Assembly: GCA_029204225.1 (NCBI GenBank)
Contig: CM055097.1
Coordinates: 51,060,195 to 51,124,194, forward strand
Direction: 5' to 3'
Length of the DNA stretch: 64,000 nucleotides
DNA from: Diphasiastrum complanatum
Lineage: Eukaryota; Streptophyta; Lycopodiopsida; Lycopodiales; Lycopodiaceae
Shown here: in pieces, positions 7,244-48,710 of the stretch
Layout of the letters: each line of letters opens with the position of its first letter
How positions within the stretch are numbered: position 1 is the stretch's first letter
Translations under genes and position numbers: made by a program
The notes under the pieces: generated by a model
What the model was told of the DNA's origin: nothing
Seen by the model: only the letters and a program-made list of their open reading frames with translations
The model's database searches: none

Positions 7244-9650
7244 GTGCGTTCCTTTTCCCAATTTCACTGTGTGACTAAGTTTTTCTGCCTGTTTGTTAAC
7301 TGATTACTTGATCTTGCTCTCCTATTGCACTGCTGTCATACGTTGCCCGATGGATTGAGATGAGGGCTTTCATAAATCGATGGAAAATTCTCGTATCACG
7401 AAATAAAGGTCACCATCGCGATTTTGTACAAACGTTTCCTCCTCATATTGTGGACACAAATAAGAGATTGTTGTCCGTGTGTGTCCGTGGATGGTACCCA
7501 TTAAACTTTATCACGACCACGTTAGTGTGAACCATTCAGAAAACTGAAGTTAGTTTACGGAAGCTGGAGTACCTCAGGAAAAACGAGACAGTAAAAGATG
7601 CGATTATGTTTGCTTCTTGTATATTCTGGACCGTCTATATAAGCAAGTGGCGTTGCTGGCTTGTAGGATCAGATTTTGGTGCGTAATTGGAGAAGACTAC
7701 AATCCATCTATGGTAAAAGCTGCAATTCATGTAACTTCAGCAAAACGAGATAGCTTCGACAGTGCAGCAGTTCTGAAGGCAACACATGACCCATTCTACA
7801 AGTAGAAAAATACACCATCCACAGAATTTATATTGTCATGATTAGTTCAGCAGACCAATCATGGATGTGTGGAGCTCGCTAATCCACAACCTGCTATATT
7901 GTACTGGATTTATTTCGAACCCAAAGAGTGTTGCACAAATAACTCACCACCCAACCATAGCTCACAAGCCCATGATCATCCCTGAGCTTGGGAGACAACA
8001 ATGGCACCACCAATGAATCCACTAAGCATTGCCATGGAATCCCATACCACCATAACCCATCCCACGTGGCTCATAGGAGATGTCTTGCCTAATTTTGATG
8101 AGCTCTCATTAGTTCAGGTTCCAATCGATTTGAATGCCCCACTTGATACACAATTATAAACCAAATCATAGATTTTAGAAAAAGCACCCATCACCTATCT
8201 ATAGCAAAACTTGTGCTCCAAATCAAGCACTAGAATCTCGAACTTTGAGTCTAACTAAAGTCTAACTTGACTTTACTAAAAATAGGTAAGGGCCCCTAGA
8301 ATTAGCACGCAGGCATGGCCTAATAATCCTAATTAAGCCTAGATGACAACATTAGGGGAAACAATGTGAACATTAAATTTAACATGATGTTGATATTGAG
8401 ATTTGTTCCTTCCTGATACTATTTTTTTACATGCCCACATTGGGGGTATTGTTTTATAGACCACAAGGCCTTTTTATTCCTATACAGGCCTAAAAGCCAT
8501 ATTTATGCATTTATATTTAGGACTAGCCAAGGGCCCAACTTTTATTAGTTAAGTATTTGGAGTGGGGCCCCTTTAGGAGGGCACACTATTTTCCCTCCCA
8601 AAATCATGCCTCCCTTGATTTTTTAAATTCTGCATCTAGACTTCCTCGAGGGAGTATAAGTACATTCATTTTTCAGCTTAAGATTGATAATGGTTGAAAT
8701 TTTCGTGGAAGAACTCTTGCCTTTGCTTATACGGCTTTAGCCGTTGATGAAATGTGATGTTCTTTATCATTCTTTGTGAAAGATTGCTAGATTGTTTCAT
8801 ATATTGTCAATTTATGCTTCGAGACATTAATTAGAAAATCGCTTTTAAGTTGCTTATAGATTGCTTTTTTCATTATTGACATAGAGACTTGATGTCAAAT
8901 TTTATAAGTATGTAGTGCACCCTAGTTCATTTGCAATGGGATGTAGTTGGAGTAGGTCTCATCATTATGCTGCATCATTGTTGTTTGTGTTCTCTCTTTC
9001 ATGTGTATGACTATTGTCTAGCAACAATAGGAATCATTGTATCAAAGCATAGGTTCAAGATTCGAGAGAACAAGGAGGTACTCAACGAATAGGATCAATC
9101 ACCATATGTAGGTTGATTAGACCATCTTCGAGGAGAAGAAGTTGGCGTCCCTAGCCAGCTCTTAATTTTCATTTTTATCTAGAAGGGTGGCAGCTTTGTG
9201 GGAGGAGATTCGGTGCTACAAGGAGAGGAGTTGTGCTGCATGAGGAGACTATGAAATCTGCCTCATATTTCAAGTAGAGATCAATAGCTGGAGGTTTAGT
9301 TGTTTATTGCAGGTTCACTGCATAAAGTTGCTATAGGACTACTAGAACAGATTGCTGGAGGTACTGCCTCAAGATTGCGAAGGCTAGCAACAATCAAATG
9401 CTGCATGTAACATGCACAATGCACAATGCACATCAACAACTGAACATGAAAAGTCCTATATAATATCAACAATGACACATGCAATGTTATGACCTAAGTC
9501 TCGTGCTCAATTGCTCACTACTCATTGGCGAAAATAGTAAATACAAAGTGTATAGCTCACTGCTCAATGATGTATCCGTATCATGTTGCTATTGAGTACT
9601 CTAGCATCTAATATCTACTATTTACACTCAATATTATCATAGCTTCCTAC

Positions 9651-34493: not shown

Positions 34494-35181
34494 TGTTAGA
34501 ATTTAGCAATTTTCACATGGTTTTTGATGAATATTAGACATCTATGTGGATCCACACGTGTGAGGACCTATCCACACGTGTGAGGACCTATCCACACGTG
34601 TGAAATGACACTTGTAATATTCAGATCCATTTTGATTAGCTTTCATTTGAGTCTAATATGACATCTCCTAAATTATAGGAGTTAGGTCCTAGATTGTAGG
34701 AATCTAGAAGGTCAACACAAACCACCAATGGATGATGTGGCAAACTTGATAGATCTTATCCAAAATGGATATGGATAAGTAAAATGAGATATCCCACACG
34801 TGCTGGATACAGCTTAGAGAGAGATTATGGTGATTTTGTACTTGATCCATGATGGATCCATTTTTGAGCTAATGATGAGAAATCTTGGTTTGTGGAGCTA
34901 TCATTGTGTTTTGACTCTCTTAAGCACTTTCTTTGTGGATGAATGCTTTGTAAATGATAAGTAAACTATTTCTCTGTTATTAGGCCGTACAGTAGCTGTA
35001 CTTCACACGTGTGAAGCCATGGATCATCTTTTTTGATTGTTCTTGCTTGGAATCACAAAGATTGTCAAGTAGAAGCTAGATTTGGAAGCTAGTCTTGATA
35101 TAGATCAAGATCCCAAGATACCAATCACTCTTTGTGATCATTTGTAGATCAATTTCAGTCCTTAAACTCTGAAATTTGACA
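34494..35181 (+). mobile_element. 5' LTR of copia element C
   Basis: It begins TGTTAGAATTTAGCAATTTT and ends GAAATTTGACA, about 688 bases. It holds three tandem copies of the 20-base unit TCCACACGTGTGAGGACCTA (from 34551, 34571 and 34591) and the 14-base palindrome TTCACACGTGTGAA at 35002. A primer-site remnant, TGGTATCGGGGCC, follows at 35182. Confidence 0.88.
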
Positions 35182-35803
35182 TGGTATCGGGGCCAAGTCA
35201 AAGAGCTTAGTTGATGATCCAAAAATCTTCATTTTGGTGAAAGCATTGGTGCTAGAGTCACTTTGAAGGAAGGCGACCTTTTCTAATAGTTTACTTGTGA
35301 TACTGAGGTTCAGATTAGTGTGTAAAGTTCATATGTACTTCTCACACGTGTGAGAGGCTGCTGGAGTTGTACTTTCACCAAAACTTTGTGTTTTTTCAAT
35401 ATTTAAGCTTCAAACAAGTTGTGTAGAGTGAAACTAGTGATGTGCTTATGAAAAACCATTGTTTCCATTATAGATTTGATGAGTGAATGGTGTTATAATC
35501 TTATTAAACCTACAAATCCTTGTGAGAGAGTTTGAGGCTTATGTTTTTAGTTCAAGAGTAAAACTAAAACCAATTCTAAACACCATAGGAAGGCATTGGC
35601 ACTTCCAAAAATCAAATCCAAGATTCTAAGTGAATAGATTGTGTAGAATACACTTTCCCAAATCTTTTTGAGTTCAAGATCATTATAGATCTTGCTTCTT
35701 GAGTGTAGTGAGATTCAAGAGAGTAGCATTTTAGCTAAATTATGAGAAAGGAAGAAGGGAGAGCCTTTGAATAGTACATTTGTTGTACTTGTTACTAGAT
35801 AGA

Positions 35804-36703
35804 ATGGGTTCAATTAGAGCCTATCTTCTTGAGGCTCGTGAAAGGCTAAATTCTAATAATTATTCAACTTGGAAAGTAAGAATGGAGTCAGTACTTGTGC
35901 TCCAAGATATGTTTGATCTTGTCATAGGAGAGGAAGAAGAACCTCAAGGAGGGCAAGATCAAGTGAGGTACAAAAAGAGAGCTAGACTAGCATTACATTG
36001 TTTGAAAATGAATGCTAGTAATGAACTTCTAAAGGAAGTAGCATCTTGTACCTCGGCCAAGGAGGCATGGAACTACCTCAAAGAGATTTATGAATCCAAA
36101 AATACCTCTAGAGTGCTTATGATTAGAAACAAAGTTCTTCAAAGCATTAGAGGGAGTGATGAGAGTGCTCAGGAGTATGTCTTGAGAATAAAATCTCTGA
36201 ACAAAGAACTTTCCATCATTAGTGAGGGTATTCATGATTATGAACTTGTTAAAATCATTTTGAATGGTCTTGGAGATGAGTTCTCCAATCTTGTACAAAG
36301 CTTTGCTATTCAAGATGCACTACCTTCCATTGACAAGCTCCATAGTGTGCTTGTGGCCGAGGAGAGTAGGATCCTTCATGTCAAGCAAAGGATTGGATCC
36401 TTAAAGTTGCCTGATGGTGATGAGAAGGCCAAATTCTCAAGCAAGGGAAAGGCAAAGTCAAAGAAGAAGATCCAACACAAGGAGACCAAGAATGATGATC
36501 AACCATCTAGCTCCAAAGGTGGAAAGAAGAACAAAGCCAAACTCAAGTGCTTCTTTTGTGGAAAGAAGGGGCACTTTGCATCCGAGTGTTTCAAGAAGAA
36601 GAATGCACAAGGAGAGAGCAAACAAGGCAACCTCACTCTTGAGGAAGATGAGGATGAAGTGGATTCATCCTTGATGGCTTCTACATCAACATCAAAGAGC
36701 TAG
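35804..36703 (+). CDS. Copia element C Gag, intact
   Basis: The likely start is ATG 35804 (MGSIRAYLLEARERLNSNNY); an in-frame ATG at 35780 is also possible but adds only a hydrophobic octapeptide. The roughly 299-residue protein has the copia gag core (STWKVRMESVLVLQDMFDLV, IILNGLGDEFSNLVQS), a Lys/Ser-rich basic stretch and one zinc knuckle, CFFCGKKGHFASEC (C-x2-C-x4-H-x4-C). It ends TSTSKS before TAG. Gag forms the virus-like particle and binds the element RNA. Of all the retroelement proteins here this is the best preserved. Confidence 0.93.
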   Translation: MGSIRAYLLEARERLNSNNYSTWKVRMESVLVLQDMFDLVIGEEEEPQGGQDQVRYKKRARLALHCLKMNASNELLKEVASCTSAKEAWNYLKEIYESKNTSRVLMIRNKVLQSIRGSDESAQEYVLRIKSLNKELSIISEGIHDYELVKIILNGLGDEFSNLVQSFAIQDALPSIDKLHSVLVAEESRILHVKQRIGSLKLPDGDEKAKFSSKGKAKSKKKIQHKETKNDDQPSSSKGGKKNKAKLKCFFCGKKGHFASECFKKKNAQGESKQGNLTLEEDEDEVDSSLMASTSTSKS

Positions 36704-38382
36704 TCCAATGACACATGGTGGATTGATAGTGGGGCTAGTTCCCACATGACATTCCAAAAGGATTTTTTCTAAACTCTTGTACCTTTTGTAGGCTGTAAAA
36801 GTCTATTCTAACAGCAAGTGATCAAGAGTGTAGAATAGATGGAGTGGGAACTATTCCCTTAAGTCTTGGATCCTCTAAAAGAGTGGATCTTGATAATGTA
36901 CTCTATGTTCCTACACTCACTAAGAATTTGTTAAGTGTAGGACAATTGATGGATGATGGCTTAGATGTCCATTTTAAGCAAGGTGTTTGCTCCATAGTGA
37001 TAATAATACTTGCATTGTAAAGGGATTCAAGCAAGGAAGGCTTTTTAAGCTTGATGCTGATGTTTTTCTTGGAAGTGTGAACATGGTGAAGGAGGAGCTC
37101 AATCAAGTGGAGCTTTGGCATAAGAGGTTGGGCCACCCCAACTTCAAATCTATGGAGATGCTATGCACCAAGGATCTTGCTCTTGGCCTTCCAAAGACAC
37201 TCTCAAATTGTGGAAAAAGTTGTGAAGCTTGTAGCCTCTCAAAGGCACACAAGCTACCTTTTGATATCTCTTCCACTAGATCTACAAAAGCATTAGATCT
37301 TAAGGCATAACATCTTATGAGGCTCTATTTTGTAAGAAGCTGAATCTTAAAGATCTAAGAATTTTTGGATCTACTTGCTATGTTTTTCAAGCATTAGATA
37401 CAAGAAAAAAGGATGATCCTACTTCTATTAAAGGGATCTTTGTTGGTTATGTTGAAAATAGCAAGGGATATAGAGTCTATAATCCAATCACTAAGAAGAT
37501 TTTAGTGAGTAGAGATGTTACTTTTGATGAAGGTAACTACTACAAGCTGAATGAGAAAGCTTCTAATCCATCTTATGTCAAGGATCTTGTAAGGTTTGAG
37601 GAGGAGCCTACATGTGATTAAGATCCTGAAGATCCATCTCAAGATCCGAGGACTCCAAGGAGATCTACAAGAAGGAAGGCCAAGCTCTCAAGGCTCACCT
37701 ATGTTGAAAAATGTGAACAAAGGGAAGATCTACATTCACTTACCTCCTACACTTTTCTAACTTCTATGTTTGATGAGCCAAGTTGCTTTGAAGAAGCTAT
37801 GGAGTCACAAGAATGGAGGGATGCCATGCAAAAAGAGTATGATGCTCTTATGGAGAATCATACATGGAAGCTTGTGGATCTTCCTCAAGGAAGAAAGCCA
37901 CTTGAGTGCAAATGGATCTATAGATTGAAGTACAATCAAGATGGGGGCATCAACAAACACAAGGCAAGGCTAGTGGCAAAGGGGTTCTTGCAAACAAAGG
38001 GAGTAGATTTTGATGAAACTTTTGCTCCTGTTTCTAAGCTAGTTTCTATAAGGTTGATTATTTCTCTTGCAACTACTTTTAATTGGCCTCTATTTCAACT
38101 TGATGTGCTTTTGTTACCTTCCTTAGCAATGGCATAGTGTCTTGGCTTTCCAAAAAGCAAGATACTATTTCTCTATCTTCAACCGAATCGAAATACAAGG
38201 CACTAACATCCGCAACAAAGGAGATCCTATGTTTGAAGAGGCTTTAATTGGAATTGCAAGTCATGGAGGATGAGGAGCAGCCAACAATATTTTGTGACAA
38301 CCAATCAAGCCAAGCATTAGCAAACAATCCCACATTCCCTGCAAGGGGTAGGCACATAGAGATTGCTCACCATTTTGAGGAG
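36704..38382 (+). pseudogene. Copia element C pol with internal deletions
   Basis: In the gag frame, directly after the UAG, comes SNDTWWIDSGASSHMTFQKD (protease DSGA). Stops follow. Then the GAG-pre-integrase zinc region (ELWHKRLGHPNFKSMEML, SCEACSLSKAHKLPF at 37100-37265). The integrase DDE core is deleted at about 37305: the sequence jumps to LRIFGSTCYVFQALDTRKKD. RT starts normally (WRDAMQKEYDALMENHTWKL, KHKARLVAKGF, FAPVSKLVSIR) but at about 38109 (FQLDVL) jumps to RNase H (SWLSKKQDTISLSSTESKYK, CDNQSSQALANNP), losing YVDD. RNase H is cut after HIEIAHHF. It cannot be autonomous. Confidence 0.9.
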
Positions 38383-39149: not shown

Positions 39150-40241
39150 ATGTTATTTATGTTTTAGTTTCTGACTTTTTAGGTATTGTACATTTGCAAA
39201 TATCGATAGCAATTATGCAAGTTACAAAAAAAACTAGTAATGGAAAACCATATGATCCAATCCTTAAACCACTAATTAATCCTTTCACCTACACATGCTC
39301 CTTTGGGTTGGAAGTTGGAGCATGGACCCCATGAACATTTCACCATAGCACGTTTGACAACACAAAATAGATTCACATTTCCTTTCCCTTGTTTCCATTA
39401 AATAACATTATTTTCATGCTAAAACAACAAAACACTCACAATGTGCAAGCACAACCCCACAACATGTGCTCATGGCAAATTGATACTCCAACCACCAATC
39501 TACCTTTACAACTTTGTAGCATTAATGGTTGAAAAAGTTAATGAACTATTTACAAGTACCCATGTACCTATGGAAAGGATAACCTTCTTGTGATAATCTA
39601 TTTGCAAATATCTATGTCGGTGCCTCCTACAAATAAATGTCTTGCATGCAAGGCTCATGTAGTACTTAGGCTTTTCTTGTGAAGGAAAATATAAAGTACA
39701 AGTCCTACTACATTGTAACATTGGCCCTTTTTCCAACTCCACCCACAACTAACCTCAACCTCATTAGCTCATCAAAAAATGAAATGGAATTGTCTCAAAA
39801 GATCTAGCTCCACTATATGTAGAATTGACAAATTCCAACAACCAACTGACTAGAATCAAATTTAATGGGATGATCTAGTAAACTGCCCATTTAAAAATAT
39901 AAAGCATTTAATGTTTTTCAATTAAATTTTATAAAGAAACTAATGGACCCTGAAGGTTGCAATATGAAAAATTTTGCTATGTGAGGGACTTGGAATAAAA
40001 CAATAGATTCCTAAAAAATTGAAAGAGTGAGCATTGCTTGCACCATTGGTGAGAATGAACCAATTATAGCTCTGTGTAGTGTTAGTATGCAACAAAGGAT
40101 GCTAGTGGTGGGGCGATGGACACTTGGAACAAGATGTTGCTTTCATCCATGACTCTCCCACCATCCTTAGGTTTTTTACAAACTTGAGACTCCTTGACCT
40201 TAGACTTAGTTGAAAATATAAAACCGACAAGGTCTTACAAA
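39150..40241. repeat. Direct repeat DR1 (about 1.1 kb), left copy
   Basis: It aligns in the same orientation with 47632-48710 over nearly its whole length. Shared blocks include TGTTATTTATGTTTTAGTTT, CACTCACAATGTGCAAGCAC, TCTATGTCGGTGCCTCCT, ATCTAGCTCCACTATATGT and CATGACTCTCCCACCATC. By eye the copies are roughly 80-85% alike, with many small indels. I see no coding potential. Confidence 0.85.
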
Positions 40242-40805: not shown

Positions 40806-42507
40806 TTATGTGACAATATCTACATTTCTCAAAGGTGTCTGAGGCATATCCTCGAGCACTATAACCTCATCCATAGATCCCTTGGCAGATTCATCAGTGG
40901 CACCTTCATGCTTGTAGGGCCTTGCACACGATAGTAAAATTTCCAACATTTCATGCCGATACTGATGAATCGCATTTGTTGATACCTCAGGACATTGGAA
41001 CTGCAAGATAAAATATCGAGTGTATGTATGTATTAGCCAATGTTTTAAAAATTATAAATTCACAAAGTTAACAATATATCATCAGGATAATGAAACTTTG
41101 AAAAAAATACCTCATGGATACTAGCATCTAGAGGTTGCACCATATACCAATCCAAGAACGATTTAACATTCCAGATTGAATACCATCCGCAGCTAAAAAC
41201 ATCATCTTGTTGCGAAGATTTAGAAATCACAGCGAAAACTTGTTAATTCAATATAATTTTAAACTCCATGCCATCATGCAAATAAAATACGTAAAAAGAT
41301 TCTTTTTACCTTTGCATCAACAATCTCTATGTTGGTATTTACAATTAGTCCATCCGGCCTGGGCAATAGCTCCACCATCCTCTTGTACATGGACTTAACC
41401 ATGGAATGGGTCGCATGCAAAGATTTCATTGTCATGCACACAGGTGTGCAGCTTCCAGTAGAATCCACTTTCATGGATATGACGTGCACAATGTTTGCTG
41501 CTAGAAAATGACAAGCAATGAATCACTAGAATCTATAAGAGTTTCCAAAAAACAAATCTTAGAGAAAACAAATATTACAAGAAGAAACTATCTTACTTTG
41601 AACAGTATGGGATGGCGAACATTGATGTCTCCTTGCTAGTGTGCCTAAAGAGCCTTCTGGCTTTCCTCTCTTTATTCAACAGATGCCCAAAAAATGGAGA
41701 TACAACAAAAATCTCTTTCGTGACTATACATGTATATTTATATACATAGTATGCACAAGCGGATTCAACTGCTATGTCTGAGATATATGAGGTCTTCCCT
41801 TTTAGCTCCCTACAATGCGGGTCTTTGATATGCATCGCAAAATAAATATCGTCTATACAAAGCGTAAACTCTCCTCCGAGATCATCTATTTTCTTGGCTA
41901 TATACAAGTCAAAATCAATGTACCTCTCAAAATCAAAAAATGTGTCTTTAGGTTCATTAGGAAGTCTGATGTGCAACTCTTTATCAGTTGCATCAACATC
42001 AGAAACAATCATGTCCACCACTATATTTAGGTCATCCGCATGTATAGAAGGAGAATCGTGCAGTTGAAGATAAGGGGTTAGGGGAGGACTCTAAACCAAT
42101 GGAATTGCGGATGTACTAGCCAGATCTTTTCTAATGGGAGGAGGTGAGGGTGAAGAGCTAGGAGACCTGTGCTTGGGTTGCGAACACTTGGGCTGTGCTT
42201 GCTTTCTCTTTTTTCGGGGTGGGACAGGCCCCCTTTCAAGAGGAACTTGCCTTTGTGTGAAGCTAGACTTAAAAATGCTATCATAGGTGTTTCGAAGCCT
42301 CATGACAAGAAGCATGTCCTTGGGCATCAGTGTCACCCTCTTGCCATGAATGGAGCACAACATCGAATCCTCAAACAATTTTGTCTGGAAGTCCTCGTAT
42401 GCAGTATGGAGTGCCTCCAATGCAGTGATATTCCACCTCACTGCATAGAACACTATTTTAGTAATTTTGGAAAAATTCCAAGTCCCATTCTTTTCTTTTA
42501 TGAGGTA
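40806..42507 (-). pseudogene. Histone H3-like / Ulp1-like protease composite gene
   Basis: Four minus-strand exons: 42507-41597, 41500-41310, about 41238-41111, and 41000-40806 (stop TAA). Exon 1 opens with an H3-like histone fold, then a basic, Pro/Ser-rich linker (PPRKKRKQAQ, SPSSSPSPPP), one in-frame TAG at 42093-42091, and a C-terminal region (HIRLPNEPKDTFFDFERYID). Exon 3 has SSQQDDVFSCGWYSIW, like the Gln...Cys-Gly active site of Ulp1/C48 SUMO proteases. Exon 2 has NIVHVISMK, a possible His site. Exon 4 ends MPQTPLRNVDIVT. Junction 3-4 keeps phase; junctions 1-2 and 2-3 do not under my splice choices. I see no Asp at the expected catalytic place. It is probably a decayed transposon-borne gene, and I know no standard plant gene with this architecture. 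Confidence 0.6.
42300..42507 (-). other. Histone H3-like histone fold domain
   Basis: Read on the minus strand from 42507: YLIKEKNGTWNFSKITKIVF, then YAVRWNITALEALHTAYEDF, then QTKLFEDSMLCSIHGKRVTL and MPKDMLLVMRLR. Aligned without gaps to histone H3 from Leu61, it keeps LI(K/R), the Arg-aromatic before helix 2, LFED, LC-x-IH-x-KRVT and MPKD, and the terminal R-x-R. All three histone-fold helices are covered. There is no H3 tail upstream in frame: a TAG precedes at 42510, where an AG could be a splice acceptor. SML, VTLM and RL also recall plant centromeric H3 variants, a weak hint. Confidence 0.8.
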
Positions 42508-42689
42508 CTATGCTCAAAATTAAGCTCAATTGCACAAATTTAACAAAGACCTATGCTCAAACTTAAGTTCGAGCACATGCTCCTTTGCTCGAACGTAAGT
42601 TGGAGCACACAAGCATGTACTAGAGAGGATAGAGAGAAAAGTTAATTTGTTCCAAAATCAAGAAATTCTCCCAATATTACTAGAACGGT

Positions 42690-43680
42690 GTTATAGGACA
42701 GATGGGTGGTCGTATCTTATGTAATCTCCCTCACAGCTTGGTAGAAGGCTGCTTTCGGAATCAGAAGTTTGATGCTCCTATGCAAGGCCCTGATGTCCCT
42801 CAACCATGGACGGCGAGGTCTTCCGCATCTTTGCAGACGTACGGGTTCAAAAGTCTAGGGACGAGACAATTGAACAAAACTGGTAAGCCTAGTGGTTTGC
42901 TTCGTCCGAGCGCATGATGGAGATACTGGGAAAGTCAGGCTGATATCGCTATGACGAGAGAGGGTGTAAGGAATAGGCCTAGGGACAAGGTCGCTCGTAT
43001 CACGAATGCAAGTTGTATGGAAGCAATCAAATGTGAAAGCAAATTACGCGAAAACCTATACAATCCCCAGGAATGGACTTATATAGGGAAAAAATGTTGG
43101 CATGCGTGAATACCAGCAACACATGGCCCAATCAGTACCTAACATGTGGAACCACACATCTGTATACGCACATGTGAAACTACACATCTGGATCAGCACG
43201 CGTGGGATTCCACGTGGAGACACGTGGCCGAATGGTGACATGTGTTCTCGCACGTATAAGCTCGCATGTGTGGTCATGTGGCCCAATCAGTACTTGTTGT
43301 GTGGGACCACACGTCTGTATCCACACGTGTGAAACTTGCACGTGTGGCCATGTGTTTGAATGGTTTGGTGACGTGTGTTCTTCCATGTATTAGCTCGCAC
43401 ATGTGGGCACATGGCCGAATGGCAGATTGATGCGTATTGTAGCACGTGTGGTCTCACACGTGTAGACGGTTATATTATGCACCATAGATCTAATCTGTTG
43501 TTGGATCAATACGTGTACGACTTGGATTTTATTGGTTTTAGCTATATAAATGTTGTTTGATCAGTTAAAATCTTTCGCTAAGTTTTGGATTTTCACTCCC
43601 TATAGCTCTTGGTGTGTCAACACTACTATTTCTTTGCAGTATCACTACCACGTGAGAATCTTTCATAGATTCTAGATGAT
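42690..43680 (+). promoter_or_regulatory. CACGTG-rich LTR-like or promoter-like region
   Basis: 43120-43465 contains more than ten CACGTG, ACATGTG or ACACGTGTG motifs in imperfect repeats of about 130-155 bases: GGCCCAATCAGTAC twice, TAAGCTCGCATGTGTGG / TTAGCTCGCACATGTGG. A CGATATCAGGTC just after (about 43684) could be a degraded primer site, so this may be an LTR, but I cannot define its ends. Confidence 0.35.
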
Positions 43681-43815
43681 CTTGGATCCCTCGCATCGTT
43701 CCGATATCAGGTCATTCACCAATATCGCCATCACACGAGGATTGCCTGATTGTCTTCTTACTCCCTATCACCCCACGTCGTAGAGATACTCGGCCCTACT
43801 GGTCATACTTTCGAG

Positions 43816-44800
43816 ATGGCCGCCTCATCTTCTAATACTTTTGATTCTGCGTTTTGGATCAGAACATAAATCCTATTTTCCAGTGTTGTATAAAGAGTAT
43901 TATGATAGTCTGAATCAGTCTATGTTGATAATGGATAATCTACGATTCATCCATGTCCATGACCTGGTACTTGCCCAACCATCTTCAAAGCGAAGCCACA
44001 GCCGACGATTCACAAAAATCGTGAGTGATTTTAAATGTGTGGTCCATTGTGACCAGCACAATCGATCATGTCGCTTTTTGTAGGAAGGCATGGGCTTTGT
44101 GTTTTATCTTTCTGCTCTTGTTCCTGAGGAGGCAGGAACTTCAAGGCTTAGCATTGAGGGTGCCTCATCATCAACAGATTCTGTGATATCAGAGTCAACT
44201 ATTGTTGATGATGTGTTGGGTGCTGACGATGAGGCAAGATTGGCAGCAATGTACGACCCAGCCGAGTCTCGTGCATTGTTTTTTTGACGTGAATCCATAT
44301 GACAAAACCAAGACTCTCCTCGATTTGCCGGTGTATTACATGTATAGTGTCGCATACCTCTCACTGAATGATGTTGGAGATGTTCTTAATCTGAGGGAGG
44401 ACAAAATATTATCAATTTTGTCTAATTTCATCAAAGAATTCAGGGACTTCATAGATCTCGATGGTGATGATGATCTACGTGCTTCTAATGATTACAAAGA
44501 TGGAGATGAATGGCTGGATGAGACTGAAGCCCTGCAGTCAATCATGTCTGAAAGCAGGGCATACCAGACAAACTTGCCTTGTGAGGAGGAATTTATGAGA
44601 ATCCGGAGCAGATATGTGTCATAGTCTTTGGAAACTAATCCATCCACTGCTTTGACGACCATTGTTGCTGGTCATGATCTACATACTGCTGCACTTATTT
44701 AAGCTGATGAGTGTGATCTGGTAGGTAAATCTGGTTTTATCTGAATGAAATTTGCTTGTATTTTACAGGCTACTGTGGAGGTGGATGCCTTTGCAACAAG
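43816..44800 (+). pseudogene. Decayed acidic protein gene, unrecognised
   Basis: ATG at 43816 gives MAASSSNTFDSAFWIRT, then a shift into HKSYFPVLYKEYYDSLNQSM and RSHSRRFTKIVSDFK. After a stop: EEAGTSRLSIEGASSSTDSV and AMYDPAESRALFF, where one extra T in a seven-T run shifts the frame. It continues DVNPYDKTKTLLDLPVYYMY, ILSNFIKEFRDFIDLDGDDD and EEEFMRIRSRYVS. Donor CTG|GTAGGT at 44720; a 32-base exon at 44769-44800 is bounded by TTTACAG and GTAGGA. Coding-like traces reach about 45200. I do not recognise the family. Confidence 0.45.
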
Positions 44801-45283
44801 GTAGGAATATTTGAGGGAAGGACAGATATCATGACAAAGGGATTCATCCCTATCCAATTATTTGAAGTGCTTTGTAAATAAAGAGATTGGCATTCATCAT
44901 AGCAGATTTTCTTCAGATGCTGCGACAATAATAATGGCAATTAAAGCGTTATCCTATTTCTCGAACGAGCATAAATACCCTCTAAATACATATAAAATTA
45001 TTTTGCGAAGAGAGACATTGTCATAAAAGTATTTGGCTATGTAGCTGAGGAAGTTCCGAAAAGGACTTCCTCCTTAGCTGTTTTCTCCGGATACATTGAA
45101 TTGAGCAAAATAAGATCCATTGATTTTCTAGATCCATATGATAGAAAAAAATTTCTTTATGACCACACAACAAAGCTGATCATTAAAGACAAAGAGAAAC
45201 AATGATTTTGCCTTGCATTTTACTTGAAATGATGCGATATAATACATATACTTTTTTAGTCTGACATCATGAAAATTATTATG

Positions 45284-46955
45284 GGTTGAGTCTTGCATCA
45301 ATATTATTTTCATCTACAAATTTGCACGTCTTTCTGAATTTTTGATAATTTGTTGATCTAGTTTTATATCGAATTTGAATACGCTTGTAGAACCATTGAA
45401 ATAGCTGGATGATGTAACTATTTTTTTGAGGTGTTCCACCGTGTTGTGTATTTCGATGAAATGTTGCTCTGGCTTGCCAATGCGATTTCTCCATTCCTTG
45501 TGATGATCAAATATTTAGACTACCGTAAGCTTTTGCAAAAAATGATGCATGATGTCGTAAAATGTGCTGCAATATCAGAGATACAAATATTGTCATATTA
45601 ATCAATTTAAATTTAGCATATGTGCAATGAGATTATAAATCGAAGAGTTAGTTACATTGAAAAGAGATTTACCATATAATGCGTAATGATCTTCACCCCA
45701 GGCGTCTTTAACTGCATCCACGAACTCAATTGTTGATTTCTCAATTAGTAGGACATCAGTATCAAACAGTTTATCTTTTCTGAGCAATTTGACCATGTTG
45801 TCAAGCTTTGTCCAGACTTCAACTTTTTTAATCCTCGTTGTTCCTTTTTCTTCAAAATCCTTTGTGGCATTGAGTGCATCTATCCAAATTGAGTACTGGA
45901 TTTTAGTTGGTTTTCTGGAATGATTTGATAAGAAACGATGAGTAATTTGATTTGAAAGGGCTGGGGAATAGGAAATTTTTTTATATGTACTTGTCCAAAT
46001 GCCTCTTTGAAAATTTTAAACAATGTGTCATATGCATCCCTGTTAATACCAGAATAATCACATGCTCCTTGTATCAATTTTCGGTCAATGATCTTGCCGA
46101 CTTCATAAGGGCCTCTACAATCTTGGACTTGATTTGAGAATATCGTTGATTTCCTAGTAGACTCGTCGTTGACTTGGCTGTAAGTACTGCATCAAAGACT
46201 TTCCAATCATGTCCTTGTCTTTCAGATTTCATTGGTGACTGAAGCTGATCTGCAAAATAAAAATAAGATTTGGAAAAAAAAACAATTTACAACCATTGAT
46301 GTGCTAGATGAAACAAAACACATGAATAGTTCAAAACATAATCTTACTTGAAAGCATATATTCTTTTTTTCCGTTGAACCCCACTTGTTGAAAGCTCATC
46401 AATACTTTTTAAAATAACTCTTTTTCGCTTATTGTTCAGTATTTTCTTCTGTTATGTGTTTACTTCTACATTTATTTGACAATATGAGGTATGCAATGTT
46501 TGTACAATCAGTTTCATATTGTCAGTTTCTTGGTTAAGGTTTAATATAATATCTTGCAAACAAGAATTATCTATCTTCAAGATTTCATTCTCTTCTTTTG
46601 TTTGCAAAAAAGGAGTCTTTTTCTCTGTAGTTAGTAAGCAAACCATTCAACATATTTTCCAAACAATGGATTTTTTTCATTGAATTACTAATGCCATAGC
46701 TTTTCAATCTTTTACAATAACCCAATAGACCATTGTGTCCTTCACACAAAAATAGTATGAGTTGTGTGACTGATCTAAAATTTGGATGTTGCATTGAGCT
46801 TGGATCGATTGGATACAAACTTCCAACAACCCATATATCACAATGTTTCCTGTCTTTTGTCCTTTGGTGAGCTGGTAAGGTGGATCCTTTCAGATTTTTT
46901 CTCGACAGTGGGGCATATTCTGTGGAAGATCAATATGGAGATGATATTTAGACAT
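45284..46955 (-). pseudogene. Decayed multi-exon mobile-element-like gene
   Basis: Minus-strand exons: (1) about 46955-46349, EYAPLSRKNLKGSTLPAHQR to SLYPIDPSSMQHPNFR, a coiled-coil-like stretch and a basic end (NNKRKRVILKSID), with one frameshift and one TAA, donor TTTCAA|GTAAGA; (2) about 46234-45990 after TTTTGCAG, SERQGHDWKVFDAVLTAKS then frame-shifted EVGKIIDRKLIQGACDYSG; (3) about 45890-45670, fully open, VEVWTKLDNMVKLLRKDKLF to WGEDHYALY; (4) about 45573-45284 after ATATTGCAG, HHASFFAKAYGSLNI-stop-SSQGMEKSHWQARATFHRNT. The last exon's 'GSLxxxSSQGMEKxH' pattern reminds me of proteins of some eukaryotic DNA transposons, a weak recollection. Introns and splice sites look genuine. Confidence 0.5.
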
Positions 46956-46959
46956 CTTA

Positions 46960-47631
46960 ATAATCGATAGATTAATCTAGTAGAAAACCAACTTGTTATA
47001 TATCTTGTAAGCTATTAAAACTCGTCTTAATTAAAAAAAAATTTAATTGAAAAAGTTTGAAATGACCTTGGCCCTCTTTTTGATCCATCACACTCCATGT
47101 TTCTTGCTTTATATGCAAAATCAAAGCTTTGCAGTTATGAGCAAAATATTTTTTCAATAGATGTGTGGTGAAATTGCAAATTTTTGAATTTCAAAAGTTT
47201 GAAACAACCCTACCGCTCCATTTGATCCAACACACTCCATACTTTCTGAATTGCAAAAATTTAGATTCACGTTGGCGCTCATTGTGATCCAAAATATTTA
47301 AAGTTTCTTGCCATGATTTTCAGATCAATAAGACTGTTTTCCTTTGATGTGAACGCTATGAGTAGATGGAAAGAAAACTTTGATGTGCAATATGATTTGC
47401 ATTTACATGAGAAGTTATTTTAGTTAATGATAGAAAATAGAATCTTGAAGTATGGATCCCACGCGTTGCGGCTACCCAACTTCCAGTTAACTACATACGT
47501 TACTAGTGAGGTCAAGTCATCGGAATTGTGCAGGTAGACCAAAAACTTGGTCGGAGTTTTAAAATCTGACGATTTTCTCTCCCTTACGTGGAATTTCTTA
47601 GACAGCCCTTTTGGGCCTTGGAACTCCTCTA
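46960..47631. other. Spacer before right direct repeat
   Basis: AT-rich; no gene seen. Near 47050-47340 the phrases 'TTTGATCCA(A/T)CACACTCCAT' and 'AAGTTTGAAA' recur, suggesting a small internal repeat. Confidence 0.35.
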
Positions 47632-48710
47632 ATGTTATTTATGTTTTAGTTTTTAAGTCTTTAGTTATTTTTAGGTCTGTAAACATTGACTTCCTTATGC
47701 AAGTTAAAAAAAAGACTTATAGTTGAAAAACATATCCAATGCTTAGACCACTAATTACTGCTTGCACCTGCACATGCTTCCTTTGAGTTGGAAGTTGGAG
47801 CCTAGACCATGAGCATTGCATCATAGCATTTTTGACAACACAAAATAGACCCACATTTCATTTCAATTATTGTTTCCATTAAAGAACATTACTTTCATGC
47901 TAAAACAACAAAGCACTCACAATGTGCAAGCACAACTCCACAACATGTGCTTATGGCAAATTGATACTCCAACCACCAATCTAACTTTAAAAAGTTACTG
48001 AACTACTACTTACAAGTACCTTTGTACCTATGGAAAAGAAACCTATTTATGATAGTTTACTTAAGAAATTCTATGTCGGTGCCTCCTCAATGCAAATGTG
48101 TTGTATCCAAGGCTCACGTATTACTTAGAATTTTTTCTCCTTTTGGAGAAAAAAAGAAGTACAAGTCCTACTCATTTTAATATTGTCCCTTTTGTTGAAA
48201 CCCCCCATAACCCACCTCAACTTCATGAATTCATTATTCGATAGGTCTAGCTCCACTATATGTAGAACTGGCAAATTCCAACAATCAGCCACGTAGATTC
48301 GAATCAATGGGCTGATTTACTAAACCGGCTATCTAAAAATATGAAGCATTTAGAGTTTCTTAATGAAATTCTACAAAGAATCTAGTGGAAGTTAAAGATT
48401 GGAAAATGAAAAAGTTGGCTCGGTGAATTAATGGGAGTAAAACAATATTTCCCAAAAAATTAAAAAGTGAGAGCATTGCTTGCACCATTGGTGAGGGTGG
48501 AAACATTGTAGCCCTATGTAGTGTGTAACAGAACATCATGCTTCCAACCAACAATGAGTTGCTAGTGGCAGTGGAGGCTCCCTCTAGATGCTTGAAAAAA
48601 GGTATTGCTTTCACCCATGACTCTCCCACCATCGAGGTTACAAAGTACATTGAGGTTGAAAGTACATTGCTTGGTATCTGTTCTCAAATAGAACTGACAA
48701 AGTCTTACAA
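47632..48710. repeat. Direct repeat DR1 (about 1.1 kb), right copy
   Basis: Same orientation as 39150-40241. Boundaries are set by loss of alignment: left side GGAACTCCTCTAATGTTATT, right side near GACAAAGTCTTACAAAC. The two copies bracket the three decayed genes at 40.8-47.0 kb. Confidence 0.85.

Follow-up and report, generated by a model that had tools for sequence, protein, structure and literature searches.

Why should a plant gene join a histone to a protease? The question is raised by a stretch of 64,000 nucleotides from the lycopod Diphasiastrum complanatum (positions 51,060,195 to 51,124,194 of contig CM055097.1, assembly GCA_029204225.1; C6:51060195-51124194 in our searches), which as a whole is referred to below as the window. 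A preliminary description of this DNA had proposed that a minus-strand gene fuses a histone H3-like fold to a Ulp1-like protease, that a mobile element had captured an ordinary or centromeric H3, and that the copy is probably dead. We analyzed the window and searched the genome (1,744,706,496 bases, 5176 contigs) for its relatives. The H3-Ulp1 gene turned out to be a repeated one, with copies on many contigs that belong to at least two subfamilies (B and W) of one DNA transposon family, and a sister family, A, carries H3 alone. The H3 and Ulp1 parts of subfamily B evolved under purifying selection. Our results suggest that a transposon acts on the chromatin of its host by means of a histone of its own making.

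A broken H3-Ulp1 gene in the window

In the order of the protein, the gene (42911-40806, minus strand) encodes histone H3, a basic linker and a Ulp1/C48 domain. Its parts, some of them taken from the open reading frame (ORF) list, are given below; the insertion resembles a miniature inverted-repeat transposable element (MITE), and SIM denotes a SUMO-interacting motif.

40806..42911, minus strand: H3-Ulp1 fusion gene, broken copy of subfamily W with four exons (alignment to W copies L057-L060, Histone match, match to the L015 fusion protein)
41597..42911, minus strand: exon 1, with H3 tail, H3 fold, basic linker and N-terminal half of Ulp1 (alignment to relatives)
42720..42911, minus strand: H3-like N-terminal tail (ARTKQT...) with helices N and 1 (frame reading, alignment to relatives' tails)
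42449..42692, minus strand: MITE-like insertion of 244 bp within the H3 exon (no counterpart in four of four aligned relatives)
42292..42448, minus strand: H3 helices 2 and 3 (RWNITALEALHTAYEDF...LFEDSMLCSIHGKRVTLMPKD; Pfam Histone, E 3.7e-14, and structure matches)
41310..41497, minus strand: exon 2, catalytic-His region, frame shifted by a 5-nt gap (alignment to relatives)
41111..41218, minus strand: exon 3, active-site Gln and Cys-Gly, QQDDVFSCGW (ORF list, alignment to relatives)
40806..41000, minus strand: exon 4, C-terminal tail with SIM-like DEVIVLED (ORF list, alignment to relatives)

The frame at 42507-42091 (minus strand) matches Pfam Histone with 53.5 bits (cut-off 26.4) and an E-value of 3.7e-14, and its matches in the Protein Data Bank (PDB) are histones, centromeric cnp1 being the best (E 1.6e-11). 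The H3-like frame noticed at 42507 is thus genuine as far as helices 2 and 3 are concerned; its first ~19 residues come from the end of the 244-bp insertion. Missed at that time were the upstream tail, in which ARTKQT starts at 42911 (its first codon is unaligned), and, at about 42820-42720, helices N and 1. Nor is the histone split by an intron, as had been supposed: since the segment 42692-42449 is missing from all four relatives and has MITE-like ends, it must be an insertion. Its inverted ends, AACAC...GTGTT, match each other, and CTAT flanks it on both sides.

Searched one by one, the Ulp1 exons of the window gave no Pfam match. The joined exons of relatives matched Peptidase_C48 in three of five rows (best E 3.1e-11; 37.8 bits in the first row against a cut-off of 20.7), and a profile built from them found ten matches in PDB, every one of them a Ulp1/SENP protease (E 2e-5 to 0.063), which corroborates the protease half of the early description. 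Across the genome, the PF02902 profile gave three matches. The window gene itself aligns with the fusion protein of L015 in two stretches: one (query 45-274, 27% identity, E 3.6e-20) begins in helix 2 of H3 and extends into Ulp1, and the other covers helices N and 1 (E 2e-5).

The window copy is dead, as had been suspected. In addition to the insertion, exon 1 includes three in-frame stops (42857-42855, 42719-42717 and 42093-42091 in comparison with L059); its donor, GTAAGA, is found in relatives at the same phase. The 5-nt gap of exon 2, again relative to L059, adjoins the catalytic His, and the acceptor of exon 3 has lost its AG. The conflict between intron phases, which had been left unreconciled, does exist in this copy, but it is due to the lesions; the phases agree in B copies and in L060. 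We rejected FYW of exon 2 as a lost His and DPFHG as the Asp, both being artefacts of the shifted frame; relatives show the His in KHWSVHV. An Rfam scan of the window gave no matches.

Relatives across the genome and selection on their protein

The genome-wide counts below rest on the best ~150 candidates of each search and favour the closest matches to the query. With the Histone profile (best 150 of 6325 candidates), 13 rows scored 163.7-165 bits, and the eight inspected are canonical host H3; three intron-containing ordinary H3 genes of the host were also read. The high-scoring rows were followed by more than 100 rows scoring 95-110 bits, which are distributed over many contigs and often lie in long open frames. 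Twenty of these loci, taken with 10 kb each, split into families A (13 loci) and B (7 loci). In family A, the H3 has an N-terminal region rich in polyglutamine and polyproline (polyQ/polyP), the protein stops after the H3 fold, and no Ulp1 was found in the 13 stretches of 10 kb. In family B, the basic linker, a short run of polyP and the N-terminal half of Ulp1 come after H3, all in a single frame in unbroken copies. One of the B copies, L023, matches Pfam Histone with E 4.7e-28.

L009-L014, L016, L021 and L024-L028: family A loci, for example L009:4829-6079 (minus strand), beginning with MARTKQTARDPRV... and ending with RERN

Yet another locus, L055:1-1101, has an H3-like gene alone (MARTKQTAREPQR...), 33-49% identical to the other H3s compared, and is possibly a third lineage of transposon H3.

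Searching with a 307-residue B fusion, a query that favours fused copies, we found both parts in all 129 scored rows (best 129 of 9397 candidates); each covers at least residues 30-287 of the query, and 29 are stop-free. Likewise, all 150 scored rows match the Ulp1 N-terminal half of the window (subfamily W; best 150 of 3917 candidates). Leaving aside the window itself, their identity is 69-90%, and 19 of the 150 have an open frame of at least 300 residues with no stop within the match. In the four W copies that we read (L057-L060), one frame of 352-373 residues leads from a MARTKQTA-like start through H3 and the linker into Ulp1, and in L060 four exons can be joined across GT-AG sites to give one frame that has no stop before its end. 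Moreover, 17 stop-free exon-1 frames (14 B and 3 W, picked as such) align from the tail to the Ulp1 half. The added copies were mostly picked for having no stop (18 of 20 and 4 of 4). Thus, both an H3 and a C48 match were obtained, and the search for intact paralogues, proposed at the outset, found the two parts sharing one open frame in B and W copies rather than residing in separate genes.

Subfamilies B and W have three introns in common, identical in place and phase. The first (phase 2) lies just ahead of the catalytic-His strand, and the other two (both phase 0) follow the His exon and the Cys-Gly exon (splice sites were picked by eye from genomic DNA). Their proteins are only 26-29% identical over the Ulp1 domain and 46-51% over H3. 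Because the two are so diverged, the fusion must be old relative to the spread of each subfamily.

The element H3s have a distinctive tail. Lys4 (K4) has been retained by 25 of 27 B copies, by 8 of 8 A tails (among the 13 A loci) and by all four W copies, while the K9 position is a Lys in none of 40 tails (27 B including two gaps, 8 A, 4 W and L055). In its place B copies have Asp (23 of 27; the others are two gaps, one Asn and one Gly), A tails Asp (6 of 8) or Gly (2 of 8), W copies Leu (4 of 4) and L055 Glu. The H3 tail sequence ARTKQTARKS is not present in the element H3s; an ARTKQTAR-like start is kept in A and W. All 17 exon-1 rows have His113 and Asp123 of H3, which we take to be nucleosome residues. 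Over the fold, element and host H3s are 48-57% identical. The element H3s (A, L055, B and W) form one clade with an ultrafast bootstrap (UFBoot) of 89-94. This clade joins CENP-A-like proteins at a weak UFBoot of 43-83; when the two plant CENH3 rows are left out of the tree, its position changes little and its support remains weak. Among PDB chains, cnp1 ranks first for a W copy, as for the window, and canonical H3 for B; the top two matches of a B+W profile among 5.8 billion proteins look CENP-A-like. The idea of an H3 captured by an element is upheld, whereas its centromeric ancestry is borne out only in part.

In the Ulp1 domain, 25 of 27 B copies retain the His and 25 the Gln. The likely Asp slot, assigned by hand, is at the end of the next strand (MNS) and is occupied by an Asn in 25 of 27 B copies; this Asn is also present in three of four W copies, those that have that exon. 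Asn is the residue used in the papain triad. The C-terminal end of both B and W proteins is acidic and includes VVVL or VIVL (DEVIVLED in the window), which we take to resemble a SUMO-interacting motif.

Selection was estimated as the ratio of nonsynonymous to synonymous substitution rates (dN/dS) from 276 pairs of 24 of the 27 B copies, leaving out L036, L045 and L051, in which exons 2-3 are replaced or lost. The ratio is 0.155 over the H3 fold (0.92 and 1.20 in frames shifted by one and two bases), 0.27 over the Ulp1 N-terminal half (0.61 and 1.26), 0.25 over exons 2-3 (0.95 and 0.87) and 0.47 over the tail (1.03 and 0.83). Since these values lie well under those of the shifted frames, both domains have been constrained. 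For H3, other sets of B copies gave similar ratios, 0.133 with 16 of 27 copies and 0.151 with all 27. In four W copies, the corresponding pN/pS is 0.53 for the tail, 0.29 for H3 and 0.38 for the linker. It is very probable that the function of the fusion protein has been under selection.

The transposon around the gene

The H3-Ulp1 gene is carried by a DNA transposon whose ends read CAYTAG. The sequence CA[C/T]TAGAGGAG is found at both ends of L023 and L015, in line with the 5'-CA..TG-3' termini of CMCT (CACTA-Mirage-Chapaev-Transib) transposons; the left end of L017 was not located. In the window, the following features belong to the element or flank it.

47621..47634, minus strand: element terminus CATTAGAGGAGTTC, exact match
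45279..46929, minus strand: transposase-like gene, broken pieces (blastp to the L023, L018 and L012 transposase)
43784..45205, plus strand: gene X, divergent from H3-Ulp1, exon pieces (blastp to L023 gene X)
47632..48633, no strand: flanking direct repeat, copy 1 (aligned with copy 2 at 74% in 1056 columns)
39150..40165, no strand: flanking direct repeat, copy 2 (comparison with copy 1)

The terminus at 47621..47634 is the only exact match among 8, matches with three mismatches being at chance level. Four pieces of gene X correspond to pieces in L023 (blastp E 1e-9 to 1e-15), and five transposase pieces to those in L023, L018 and L012 (best E 2e-35). In L012, a family A locus, the H3 gene adjoins a related transposase. 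After the second Asp of the transposase, a C(2)C motif is seen in 2 of the 12 rows reaching that region (AGDLKTLK...CIYC in P0121 and ...CLYC in P0125), and a conserved pair of His, H(2)H as in ETHITHY, in 11 of 12 (by eye; CMCT elements have H(3-4)H). Pfam Tnp2, the transposase of CACTA/EnSpm elements proper, did not match the transposase pieces, which are pieces only and not the full protein. No target duplication, expected to be 2-5 bp for CMCT elements, was found at L023 and L015, the copies with both ends. The repeated family, its termini, the transposase pieces and the order of the genes support the assignment of the fusion gene to a mobile element.

Several other observations concern the element and its surroundings. 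The direct repeats flanking it in the window have a counterpart in L018 (reverse; 2006-2327 and 8451-8773, 323 bp, 92%), and in both cases they are far longer than a normal target duplication. We discarded the reading of the window repeats as long terminal repeats, since one of them abuts the CATTAG terminus and the L018 repeat differs in length. Repeats rich in ACACGTGT occur at 43124-43336 and 34550-34603 of the window and at L023:4331-4432; in the window as well as in L023, a set of them separates gene X from H3-Ulp1 within the upstream region that these two genes have in common, and such repeats could be promoter or transposase-binding sites. Near position 386 (minus strand) of L059, a related terminus (CATTAGAGGAGTTTTGAG...) follows exon 3 inside the H3-Ulp1 gene, as would be expected had another member of the family inserted there. 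A further gene, Y, is common to families A and B (L009:6592-6957 and L023:6842-7456, both minus strand, 33% identity); in A it has a weak PB1-like match with an E-value of 0.05, below the cut-off. A broken Ty1/copia-like retrotransposon with a zinc-knuckle frame and, later, a reverse-transcriptase-like frame lies at 35771-38137 (plus strand) of the window (by eye, from the ORF list).

What the fusion protein may do

That H3 and Ulp1 are fused, and that the fusion gene is carried by a transposon, we regard as practically certain. We also lean, without great conviction, towards the complete statement that the window holds a dead copy of a selected transposon gene whose H3-Ulp1 protein is a chromatin effector working for the element. 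According to this proposal, the transposon would make its own effector protein. Its H3 module would pair with host H4 and enter or dock on nucleosomes, perhaps those of the element, and its Ulp1 module would strip SUMO, or a related modifier, from nearby chromatin proteins. The H3K9 methyl mark silences plant transposons, and nucleosomes with an H3 module that has no K9 could not carry it. The net effect would most likely be anti-silencing, like that of the Ulp1-carrying VANC genes of Vandal elements. Anti-silencing may be the purpose of the protein, although we put the chances at somewhat less than even. A more specific version, in which a core histone encoded by the transposon clade itself, an H3 with K4 and no K9, unfused in family A and joined to the protease in B and W, would produce silencing-resistant, de-SUMOylated nucleosomes on the element, is possible but doubtful.

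A number of observations weigh against this interpretation. Of the four W copies, only L060 shows the full joining of exons, and its H3 is without five residues, RVTLM. Exons 2-4 are missing from L057; in L058, the first donor is gone, Asn replaces the His and exon 2 is shifted; L059 is shifted in exon 2 and ends abruptly after exon 3. The catalytic Cys is intact in only 17 of 27 B copies, and the usual catalytic Asp is not conserved. Not all regions are constrained beyond the shifted frames: the dN/dS of the linker is 0.57 (shifted, 0.52 and 0.86) and that of exon 4 is 0.51 (0.46 and 0.81), while in W the Ulp1 N-terminal half is less constrained (pN/pS 0.59, four copies). AlphaFold gave no usable model for exon 1 (mean predicted local distance difference test score, pLDDT, 33.5). 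The loss of K9 may be explained by CENH3 ancestry alone, with no anti-silencing role. Finally, the amplification of H3 by fungal hAT transposons is described, in the portion of PMC6710886 available, with no sign of benefit.

The main alternative is integration targeting, in which the H3 module would guide the transposon complex to certain chromatin, for example that of CENH3, with Ulp1 as an accessory. The weakly supported position of element H3s near CENP-A-like proteins and cnp1 as the best PDB match of the window piece and the W copy both point in this direction, and the reference list of a review, PMC13317346, names a study of centrophilic retrotransposon integration through CENH3 chromatin in Arabidopsis. 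However, the best PDB match of the B copy is canonical H3, and the B copies, of which 99 of 129 were placed, are spread as if uniformly (nearest-neighbour P 0.57). Mild clustering is seen for W (P 0.003; 115 copies of 150 were placed), but these copies tend towards the ends of contigs rather than their middles (folded mean 0.446, Kolmogorov-Smirnov P 0.013). No single zone holds a concentration of copies. We consider targeting unlikely. Centromere targeting was dropped as the leading idea, copy positions giving no support for it in an assembly whose centromeres are not mapped.

We judge it equally unlikely that the Ulp1 part is a pseudo-protease, binding SUMO or SUMO-like proteins without cutting them, so that the fusion would serve as an adaptor between nucleosomes and SUMO. 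The replaced catalytic Asp, the Cys missing from 10 of 27 B copies (two gaps; some with the exon replaced) and the acidic VVVL or VIVL end of B and W proteins, which we take to be SIM-like, would all fit such an adaptor. Yet His and Gln have been kept in 25 of 27 copies each, and dN/dS over the catalytic exons is 0.25. Where Tyr or Phe stands in place of the Cys, a change of one base accounts for it, as decay would produce, and the papain triad works with Asn.

Could H3 and Ulp1 have been trapped and merely carried along? According to PMC13317346, DNA transposons often capture genes, most of which end up as pseudogenes, and PMC6710886 reports H3 amplified by hAT elements to hundreds of copies in six fungal genomes, all inactivated by repeat-induced point mutation. 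Passenger capture is nevertheless very improbable here, given the frame-specific purifying selection in both B domains, the identical splice phases of B and W despite 26-29% identity of their Ulp1 domains, and the retention of H3 in a further family, A. As to a chance juxtaposition or an assembly artefact, in which an H3 pseudogene would merely lie next to a Ulp1 transposon unrelated to it, the broken and ambiguous window copy taken alone might have left room for it. For the family, however, this reading is refuted by the recurrence of the gene at more than 100 scored loci spread over many contigs, those read having a single frame, and its probability is negligible.

The H3-Ulp1 gene and its transposon have partial counterparts in several known systems. 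In Dothideomycete fungi, hAT transposons captured and multiplied H3, and many copies in Pyrenophora tritici-repentis are putatively functional (PMC6710886). As here, a DNA transposon multiplied H3 to hundreds of copies; however, the fungal H3 derives from a host transcript and is unfused in the text available, whereas here a divergent H3 clade is fused to Ulp1, selected and carried by a CAYTAG element. The KAONASHI/KIU Ulp1 genes of Vandal transposons, which are Mutator-like and lack terminal inverted repeats, likewise place Ulp1 on a DNA transposon; they are linked to anti-silencing VANC, and the Ulp1-carrying VANC (KIU) genes lift silencing from related copies (PMC13317346). Vandal elements are of Mutator type, and the text available mentions no histone, unlike the H3 fused to Ulp1 here. 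The CACTA-ULP elements, known from five grapevine Cactavine families and rice proteins (PMC2528002), combine a CACTA-type chassis with a Ulp1 domain, and the termini here are CA[C/T]TAG. In contrast, their description mentions no histone in the part available, and our transposase pieces have no Pfam Tnp2 match. Fungal CMCT-group transposons carry TET/JBP, for which an escape from silencing has been proposed (PMC12730594). They too are DNA transposons of the CACTA-Transib range with a modifier of chromatin or DNA marks, but the modifier is a dioxygenase and not a histone or a protease.

At the level of individual domains, element H3s share with H3 and CENH3 (CENP-A) the histone fold and, in A and W, the ARTKQTAR-like start, and have intermediate features; they differ in having no K9, in being borne by a transposon and in being fused to a protease or a polyQ/polyP region. 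The protease domain is Pfam C48, with the His, Gln and Cys positions of Ulp1/SENP, but has Asn in the likely Asp slot and an N-terminal histone. We found no H3-Ulp1 fusion among the matches listed from 5.8 billion proteins (best 120 of 355 and 19 of 19), in searches covering proteins of 0.55 to 1.75 times the query length; these matches cover at most 40% of the query, in its H3 part. Nor was a report of such a fusion found in the open-licence literature, and the available part of PMC5735166 does not mention Ulp1. Plant DNA transposons with Ulp1 and fungal hAT elements with H3, mostly dead copies, are already known; new are the H3-Ulp1 fusion, a transposon-specific H3 clade with K4 and no K9, and purifying selection on both domains.

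On the more specific and doubtful version of the proposal, nucleosomes built by the element itself would represent a chromatin state made by a transposon. Should the protein work as proposed, it would give a handle on why Ulp1 domains recur in plant transposons, and on the question whether supplying a histone that has no K9 allows an element to evade H3K9-based silencing.

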